This document shows positions 62,182 through 63,530 of a stretch of 64,000 bases of DNA, in pieces. This stretch comes from Bacteroidota bacterium (GTDB lineage Bacteria; Bacteroidota; Ignavibacteria; Kryptoniales; JAKASW01). The notes under the pieces were generated by a model that was given only the letters and a program-made list of their open reading frames with translations, was not told the origin of the DNA and did no database searches. Where the stretch lies: assembly GCA_021825585.1 (NCBI GenBank), contig JAKAGT010000007.1:62001-126000 (forward strand), given 5' to 3'. Every line of letters begins with the position of its first letter. The first letter of the stretch is position 1. Both the position numbers and the translations under genes were made by a program.

Positions 62182-62256
62182 CGGGGCGTGGCTCAGCCCG
62201 GTTAGAGCGCCTGGTTCGGGACCAGGAGGTCGTGGGTTCGAATCCCACCGCCCCGA
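62182..62256 (+). tRNA. tRNA-Pro (CGG)
   Basis: Complete cloverleaf. The acceptor CGGGGCG pairs with CGCCCCG and the discriminator is A. The anticodon arm is CCTGG-TTCGGGA-CCAGG, giving anticodon CGG. The T arm GTGGG-TTCGAAT-CCCAC is perfect. No CCA is encoded. It is followed at once by the three 133-bp units copied from it. Confidence 0.95.
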
Positions 62257-62257
62257 C

Positions 62258-62656
62258 GATCCATGTACAGAGAAGCAAATCAAGTCACGCGGTGCGAAGA
62301 GATACCTCATGGAGTTAACAACTCAACAGCCCGGTTAGAGCGTGGCGCGCCTCGCGCCAAGGTCGTCCGTTCGAATCCCACCGCCCCGACGATCCATGTA
62401 CAGAGAAGCAAATCAAGTCACGCGGTGCGAAGAGATACCTCATGGAGTTAACAACTCAACAGCCCGGTTAGAGCGTGGCGCGCCTCGCGCCAAGGTCGTC
62501 CGTTCGAATCCCACCGCCCCGACGATCCATGTACAGAGAAGCAAATCAAGGCATGCGGTGCGAATAGATACCTCATGGAGTTAACAACTCAACAGCCCGG
62601 TTAGAGCGTGGCGCGCTTCGCGCCAAGGTCGTCCGTTCGAATCCCACCGCCCCGAC
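62258..62656 (+). repeat. Three tandem 133-bp units built from part of tRNA-Pro
   Basis: Units begin at 62258, 62391 and 62524 (period 133). Units 1 and 2 are identical; unit 3 has four substitutions. Each has a 64-bp non-tRNA segment, then a D-arm-like sequence (CTCAACAGCCCGGTTAGAG), a replaced anticodon arm (perfect hairpin TGGCGCG/CGCGCCA with 3-base loop), GTCCG, and the 3' end of the tRNA (TTCGAATCCCACCGCCCCGA). The 5' acceptor strand is missing and the T stem no longer pairs (GTCCG versus CCCAC), so these are not functional tRNAs. Short open frames across them are not genes. Confidence 0.9.
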
Positions 62657-62690
62657 GAGTTCACTATCCTTCCTCTCGCGGAGAATGACA

Positions 62691-62708: not shown

Positions 62709-63530
62709 CTAGCTTCTACTGGAATAGATCAAAGGGTTTTGGTTGTCATCTCTCAATAGATCGCCAATCGTCAGACGAGCAACCTGCTCGACGCTGAGAA
62801 CGTTTTTAATACCATTGAAAGTCGCACCGTCCGGCATGTAGGCGCATGTCATAGCCCGCCGAAAACCCGGAGTCATATTGGGTCCTGCACCATGAATAGT
62901 TAAGCCGTTGTGAAAGGAGCAGCTTCCTGCTTTCATCGGAACTGCCACAGGCCTGCAAATGGCAAGATCGGGATAGAAGTTAAATATCGCGTCCATGTTC
63001 TTGCCGATGCCCGGATTCTCGAAACTCGTCTTATGACAGGAGCCGGGGAGAAAATACAGGCATCCATTTTGAAGAGTCGCGTCATCTAAGGCAACCCAGA
63101 TCGAAATTGCACGTTTGTCACTAAACGACCAGAAAGGAGTATCCAGATGCCACGCAGTCGGATTGGCCCACGGCCGTTTTATCAATGCCTGGTCGTGCCA
63201 GATCCTTATTCCCTCACATCCCGACAAATCCGCCGCTAATTTCCCCAACTTCTCGTCGAGCATTAGACTTCTCATTTTGTCGTTAGTCTGCCACAGGTTT
63301 ATCATTTGATCGAATACTTTCCCGTAGTATTCCGCATCCTTGTTGATCCCGTCGTCTTCCCCGGTTTTTATATCCTCATTCGGAAATTTCCTTCCGCCCC
63401 GCTCTTCCGTTGCTTCCTTGACTGCTTCCCTCCAAAAAGCCAATTCATCGTCATCCAACAATCCGTCAATGACTACAAATCCATCCCTTCGATAACTGTC
63501 GATTTGTGATTGAGTGAGCGTAGCCTTCAC
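62709..63530 (-). CDS. Phytanoyl-CoA dioxygenase (PhyH) family protein
   Basis: Fe(II)/2-oxoglutarate oxygenase of 273 residues. HxD in WHLDTPFW (near residue 140) and the distal His in HGAGPN (near 215) give the metal triad; the 2-oxoglutarate Arg is likely in FRRAMTC. The substrate cannot be read from the sequence; relatives act on small secondary metabolites or lipids. It is separate from neighbours, with the tRNA array downstream. Confidence 0.9.
   Translation of the reverse strand: MKATLTQSQIDSYRRDGFVVIDGLLDDDELAFWREAVKEATEERGGRKFPNEDIKTGEDDGINKDAEYYGKVFDQMINLWQTNDKMRSLMLDEKLGKLAADLSGCEGIRIWHDQALIKRPWANPTAWHLDTPFWSFSDKRAISIWVALDDATLQNGCLYFLPGSCHKTSFENPGIGKNMDAIFNFYPDLAICRPVAVPMKAGSCSFHNGLTIHGAGPNMTPGFRRAMTCAYMPDGATFNGIKNVLSVEQVARLTIGDLLRDDNQNPLIYSSRS

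Follow-up and report, generated by a model that had tools for sequence, protein, structure and literature searches.

The array behind the tRNA-Pro(CGG) gene in the window (the whole 64,000-nucleotide stretch of Bacteroidota DNA analysed here) is a relic. It points to a widespread family of minimal, tRNA-linked GIY-YIG nuclease genes that are framed by split tRNA copies and that are undescribed as far as we have searched. The repeats themselves are probably tandem, internally deleted and non-autonomous copies of a small selfish element linked to tRNA genes. A full-length partner of these copies is present in the same genome, and related loci in other genomes show the element in full, shortened, scarred and empty states.

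The tRNA-Pro(CGG) array and its full-length partner

The host gene upstream of the array is an intact tRNA-Pro(CGG) (62182..62257, plus strand), recognized by both ARAGORN and Rfam RF00005 (69.8 bits). It is followed on the plus strand by three units of 133 bp at 62258..62390, 62391..62523 and 62524..62656. Tandem Repeats Finder reported a single array (62227-62658, period 133, 3.2 copies, 97% matches, score 822), and a repeat search gave spacings of 133 and 133, the copies being 99% and 96% identical to the reference one. In a search of the organism's own genome, the three units matched at 100%, 100% and 97%; by the repeat and own-genome searches, unit 2 is identical to unit 1 and unit 3 is 97% identical to it. 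The first-pass annotation of this DNA had described three near-identical tRNA-derived units, and ARAGORN, Tandem Repeats Finder and the own-genome search confirm them.

Each unit ends in a pseudo-tRNA-Pro that corresponds to tRNA nucleotides 13-76 with the anticodon arm swapped. Repeat and own-genome searches place these copies on the plus strand at 62327..62390 (unit 1), 62460-62523 (unit 2) and 62593-62656 (unit 3). In every unit, a perfect hairpin of 17 nt (TGGCGCG-NNT-CGCGCCA) occupies the place of the 17-nt anticodon arm CCTGGTTCGGGACCAGG. In unit 1, inspection of the sequence shows this as the perfect 7-bp hairpin TGGCGCGCCTCGCGCCA at 62343..62359 (plus strand), and its plus-strand counterparts lie at 62476-62492 and 62609-62625. 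Both this swap and the loss of the 5' acceptor strand (tRNA nucleotides 1-12 are absent from each pseudo-tRNA) were correctly noted before. The T stem, also said to be lost, is broken but not deleted: its 5' strand reads GTCCG instead of GTGGG and therefore cannot pair with CCCAC, whereas nothing is lost from the T-loop, the 3' strand of the T stem or the 3' acceptor strand. We also considered the GTCCG T stem as a mark of the outermost copy; this holds at some loci (contig C22, see below, and genome G001) and fails in G005, and we abandoned the idea.

The earlier reading missed that 58 bp of each unit are the 3' end of a nuclease gene. By alignment with the 309-bp units of C22, unit 1 consists of 11 nt from the start region of an open reading frame (ORF; GATCCATGTAC), these 58 nt and the pseudo-tRNA. 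The GIY-YIG remnant of unit 1 (62269..62338, plus strand; frame EKQIKSRGAKRYLMELTTQQPG*) is supported by the ORF list, tblastn and alignment, and it recurs in units 2 and 3 at +133 and +266. Its stop codon falls inside the D-arm-like piece. In tblastn, the remnant matched residues 54-83 of the C22 protein at 73-76%. No terminator-like site was found inside the array. Behind it lies an ORF of 273 amino acids (window 62709-63530, minus strand), which may resemble phytanoyl-CoA dioxygenases.

The intact counterpart of these units lies on contig C22 of the window's own genome. Here, a second array behind tRNA-Pro(TGG) contains two 309-bp units that have the same ends as the 133-bp units. Each carries one intact 83-codon ORF (MYKVYILYSKRTDRYYTGST...), encoding an 83-aa GIY-YIG nuclease, that starts 5 nt behind the tRNA and has its stop codon inside the D-arm-like piece (GGT TAG). 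Alignment shows the window unit to be the C22 unit minus 176 bp of the gene. The 122 bp that they share are 93-95% identical, and the 58 bp derived from the ORF are 91-93% identical. Two non-allelic tRNA-Pro loci of one genome thus carry near-identical units, and over the ORF-derived stretch other species give no more than short matches; we therefore conclude that there was recent exchange between the two loci. With the assembly rated at 4% contamination, we considered C22 as a possible contaminant and judged this unlikely: it has the sole high-scoring match for tRNA-Pro(TGG), and its units are near-identical to those in the window.

The window unit therefore has what characterizes a non-autonomous derivative: its genome also contains a full element with the same ends, and the unit itself lacks an intact gene. 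Miniature inverted-repeat transposable elements (MITEs) and other non-autonomous derivatives are likewise internally deleted copies whose ends match those of a full element in the genome that carries them. The window units resemble MITEs in being deleted copies with the ends of the full element; they differ in having no inverted-repeat ends and no transposase, and in being tandem rather than dispersed. The first-pass annotation had compared the repeat to a short interspersed element (SINE). That idea was right in spirit, as the full-length partner in the same genome indicates a non-autonomous element, but the copies are tandem and confined to tRNA loci, and the likeness to SINEs itself was not borne out. 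A SINE-like retroposon or a hairpin RNA gene amplified via RNA would fit tRNA-derived sequence with a strong hairpin. We regard it as exceedingly improbable, given that, apart from a single hairpin piece at tRNA-Val(CAC), the copies in this genome occur only at tRNA-Pro loci, with no dispersal, and that the pseudo-tRNA folds no better than its shuffles (z -0.27).

Nuclease genes beside tRNA genes

The full element comprises a single gene, about 80-100 codons long, whose product is a stand-alone GIY-YIG nuclease. The C22 protein matches the Pfam GIY-YIG family (PF01541) with an E value of 9.5e-16 (58.3 bits, cut-off 22.6). The catalytic domain covers residues 2-69, almost the entire protein, and Pfam coverage reveals no separate DNA-binding domain within the 83 residues; known GIY-YIG homing enzymes have a separate DNA-binding region. 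Across 13 divergent members, Y, G, R, H, E and K are invariant; the catalytic residues Y16, R26 and E62 do not vary and Y5 hardly does. The closest solved structures by sequence are 1zg2 and 1ywl, both UPF0213-type proteins, which share with the tRNA-linked nuclease a minimal single GIY-YIG domain. UPF0213-type proteins are chromosomal and, to our knowledge, have no link to tRNA. Among intact nuclease genes, between-species pN was 0.11-0.33 and pS 0.55-0.98, and the protein is therefore kept by purifying selection.

Small GIY-YIG genes were found in all 13 genomes of the genus sample using a six-frame protein search, and 74 of the hits were examined with their flanks and mapped for tRNAs. A same-strand tRNA lies within 170 nt of 38 of the 59 genes of the tRNA clade, and none of the 59 has one on the opposite strand. 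The remaining 15 genes form a separate clade in the tree; being tRNA-free (0 of 15 near a tRNA), they were taken as housekeeping relatives. Random expectation is about 0.2% per gene, and the binomial log10 P for the linkage is about -85. Most of the 21 tRNA-clade genes without a near tRNA are later units of an array or border on a tRNA fragment: seven are second array units (such as G000:C22, G001:C33, G003:C74 and G000:C9), and several others are found next to a piece of a tRNA or at the end of a contig. The ORFs often begin 0-13 nt behind the tRNA 3' end.

Linked isotypes include Pro, Gln, Val, Ser, Met, Arg, Leu, Ala and Asn. The nuclease lineages follow tRNA isotype rather than genome: isotype changes 9 times on the nuclease tree, against 24 changes of genome. 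All nine Gln-linked genes fall in one clade (SH-aLRT 98), as do the Arg-linked (3/3) and the Pro(CGG/TGG)-linked genes (8/8). Alternatively, this locking to isotype could stem from long vertical descent at each locus.

Beyond the genus, strong matches were present in 104 of 296 genomes of the phylum; named carriers include Pseudochryseolinea flava and Portibacter lacus. A tRNA was adjacent at 22 of 27 phylum loci, which are the best-scoring part of the hits and not a random sample, and up to five ORFs occurred in tandem. One locus each in a Kiritimatiellae and a Saccharibacteria genome follows this layout too, again with a hairpin in place of an anticodon arm. Phage records yielded one distant relative of the nuclease, and no relatives were found in plasmids or in viral contigs.

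Several of these loci have features of their own. Related GIY-YIG genes lie at tRNA genes at loci L104 and L108 (Saccharibacteria, Woykebacteria), one of which has a 5' tRNA-Glu half with its anticodon arm replaced by a hairpin. In Pseudochryseolinea flava (L083, 977-2016), several short units of ~130 bp and one full nuclease unit with the same hairpin core lie behind tRNA-Pro(TGG). Five near-identical tandem GIY-YIG genes with a period of 315 lie behind tRNA-Asp at L184 (1391-3231), where a terminator-like hairpin and T-run were seen ahead of each ORF.

Orthologous or comparable tRNA-Pro(CGG) loci across the 13 genus genomes display the element in different states. There are two full units in G001, one short and one full unit in G005, one full and one decayed unit in G010, two short units in G007 and three short units in the window genome. 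G002, G009 and G012 retain short scars in which a likeness to the nuclease gene's first residues persists, and the locus is empty in G003, G006, G008 and G011. The empty locus of G006 is syntenic with the window: the upstream flanks align as far as the tRNA, and both genomes have the same flanking gene downstream, with the array absent from G006. A single site thus shows the presence, absence and decay (full, short, scarred and empty states) looked for in a homing gene. The orientation of tRNA-Pro(CGG) relative to a neighbouring small gene is opposite in G000, G006 and G010 to that in other genus genomes, which suggests a local inversion.

These comparisons also bear on a simple reading of the array, a local tandem duplication of the tRNA 3' flank with no mobile element. 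The Escherichia coli tyrT repeats (178 bp; rtT RNA, Rfam RF00391) are an analogue for it: they are tandem units behind a tRNA, each starting with the tRNA 3' end. The window array is like them in being made of tandem units behind a tRNA, and its units are indeed head-to-tail and bounded by tRNA 3' ends. We know of no nuclease gene reported for the tyrT repeats, and RtT had no match in this genome in a search that was positive in E. coli. Duplication alone also leaves aside that an intact nuclease gene at another place in the genome accounts for what the units contain, and that the hairpin core is conserved phylum-wide. Furthermore, the G005 short unit has deletions different from those of the window unit; the short units of G005 and G007 have separate origins, and similar units occur in Pseudochryseolinea flava. 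The first-pass annotation had allowed that the copies might be merely a local duplication. They are more than that, as both relatives and other parts of this genome contain related copies, the number of which varies from species to species. Local duplication without a mobile element is thus quite unlikely, and as the whole story it is refuted by the partner element; it is retained as the amplification step. The amplification of the short units was probably a simple local duplication, the last step in the history of a decayed element.

Split tRNA copies and a homing-like model

At the nuclease loci, the gene sits between an intact tRNA and a partial one, and the arrangement comes in two handed forms. 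At most loci the intact tRNA lies upstream, and the partial copy is then the 3' part (nucleotides 45-74, 45-75, 46-76, 42-76, 44-74 or 17-75). At others it lies downstream, and the partial copy is mostly the 5' part (1-27, 1-35, 1-44, 1-40 or 1-37). The two forms meet at 44|45-46 for tRNA-Pro(TGG) and at 40|42 for tRNA-Pro(GGG); these are views from both sides of a single break, on the 3' side of the anticodon arm. Both forms break near the anticodon arm, often with a perfect hairpin in its place. By contrast, Arg, Leu and some Ser elements have hairpin and break in the T-loop, and some Met, Ala and Pro(GGG) elements have them in the D-loop. Such T- and D-loop breaks (Arg, Leu, Ser, Met and Ala) count against a uniform cut at the anticodon arm. 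No partial tRNA copy was detected at several linked loci (L086, L182 and L194). The TGGCGC...GCGCCA hairpin core of the Pro-type copies is nearly invariant across the phylum. Covariation is slight, as six of the seven pairs are almost invariant and the innermost alone varies (G-C, C-G, U-G). Sequence conservation is thus the stronger signal for this hairpin.

The handed forms weigh against a proposal of the first-pass annotation, that the array could be a chain of hybrid attachment sites, which tyrosine-integrase elements would have left behind at the tRNA 3' end. Islands carried by integrases classically insert at tRNA genes, and units bounded by tRNA 3' ends have the look of this target. We nevertheless hold an attachment-site origin to be very improbable. 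The full-length units carry a GIY-YIG gene only, with no integrase gene found within them; the copies often span the D arm and hairpin, well beyond a short core; and a duplicated 5' part with a downstream tRNA is not what an integrase leaves when it inserts at a 3' end. On unit content, distribution and folding, we reject an attachment-site chain and a SINE, and consider a stand-alone hairpin RNA improbable.

Instead, the full element is likely to be a tRNA-targeting, homing-like selfish nuclease element and the window array its non-autonomous remnant, with cleavage and mobility inferred from sequence. In this model, the nuclease would cut an element-free tRNA gene of its own isotype close to the base of the anticodon arm on its 3' side. 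A filled copy would then be the template for repair, with the portions of the tRNA that flank the cut as homology arms, and the element would be copied in. The tRNA would be rebuilt on one side, and the displaced half would persist as a pseudo-tRNA in which the hairpin removes the nuclease target. Once the gene had decayed, recombination between the repeated tRNA 3' ends would multiply the short units. The 3' part would be kept with an upstream tRNA and the 5' part with a downstream tRNA because the tRNA parts outside the cut are the homology arms. Two further points count against the model. The neighbouring intact tRNA should also be a target of the nuclease, with nothing in these data to account for its protection, and a bare catalytic domain of ~83 aa, which has no separate DNA-binding region, offers no obvious means of recognising one isotype.

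The nuclease might alternatively serve the host, or be an addiction nuclease, acting on tRNA or branched DNA. Its position behind a tRNA would then provide strong transcription and release of the mRNA by tRNA 3' processing, and the partial tRNAs would be by-products of local duplication. ORF starts 0-13 nt behind the tRNA, which would often give a near-leaderless mRNA after 3' processing, suit such a role, as do strong purifying selection and a minimal GIY-YIG domain like that of UPF0213 (1zg2, 1ywl). However, elements with a downstream tRNA could not use the tRNA promoter, and a host or addiction function has no need for 3' and 5' tRNA copies that share a break near the anticodon arm. The patchy presence, scars and pseudogenes at orthologous loci and the multiple paralogues, each locked to a different isotype, also speak against it, and we consider this function unlikely.

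The homing-like model explains both the crowding of small GIY-YIG genes behind tRNA genes and the partial, hairpin-bearing tRNA copies adjacent to them, and it predicts the cut site almost to the nucleotide. If it is true, there is a second, integrase-free way to parasitise tRNA genes, present in several copies per genome in much of the phylum. There would also be minimal nucleases dedicated to single isotypes, the specificity of which can be compared within one genus.

Relation to known elements

The nearest parallels that we found are the mORF elements of fungal mitochondria (Glomus atp6, atp9, cox2 and nad3; Allomyces atp6), in which endonuclease ORFs supply a replacement for the severed end of a gene (PMC3630166). 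In these, the ORF brings a replacement gene end, so that the gene remains complete, and the original end, once displaced, is found behind the ORF (PMC3630166). The tRNA elements would follow the same logic. The mORFs differ in occupying organelle protein genes, with a LAGLIDADG enzyme in the atp6 case (PMC3630166), whereas the tRNA elements occupy bacterial chromosomal tRNA genes, encode GIY-YIG nucleases, come in both handed forms and have a hairpin in the displaced tRNA part. As in the mORF arrangement, 3' or 5' parts of the tRNA lie across the ORF from the intact tRNA. In several genera, both copies of the tRNA end match the local tRNA; tRNA ends are too conserved to reveal a foreign origin. 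The full element may thus work like a homing element of the mORF type. We do not claim membership, because a separate DNA-binding domain is absent and the activity is inferred from sequence.

A second parallel is SegB of T-even phages, a GIY-YIG homing endonuclease that lies beside tRNA genes. According to the accessible part of the source, SegB is implicated in cutting tRNA-containing DNA and drives tandem amplification of a unit made of tRNA and truncated segB, by recombination at short homology (PMC13096335). To that extent, the two systems are alike in having a GIY-YIG nuclease gene adjoining a tRNA gene and tandem units with a truncated nuclease gene. They differ in that SegB is phage-borne, and a pseudo-tRNA with a swapped arm was not seen in that part of the source (PMC13096335).

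We found no published description of tRNA-linked GIY-YIG elements in a search that mostly missed subscription papers and preprints and is thus weak evidence of novelty. The accessible part of a 2006 survey of the GIY-YIG superfamily, with three mentions of tRNA, yielded no linkage to tRNA genes (PMC1564403). In our judgement, the chances are about even that these genes are an undescribed and widespread class of bacterial selfish elements. Such a class would comprise tRNA-splitting GIY-YIG genes with one isotype and one break point per lineage, the tRNA rebuilt on one side, the displaced half disarmed by a hairpin and deleted copies as tandem passengers.

Small palindromes were also observed in tRNA-derived repeats at other loci. 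Many 36-bp units follow tRNA-Val(CAC) at G000:C6 (L010, about 1620-1030, minus strand), each joining the 3' acceptor end of the tRNA to a palindrome (AGAGCCCACGCAGAGGTCATCCCGCTTGTGCGGGAT). At its end, this array has a D-arm/TGGCGCG-hairpin piece that resembles the one in the Pro element. In pseudo-tRNA copies at G007:C21, G010:C38, G003:C81 and L080, TCC...GGA palindromes lie in the T-loop (TTC|GAA) and extend its TTC/GAA palindrome. They are possibly a separate family of small palindromic repeats.
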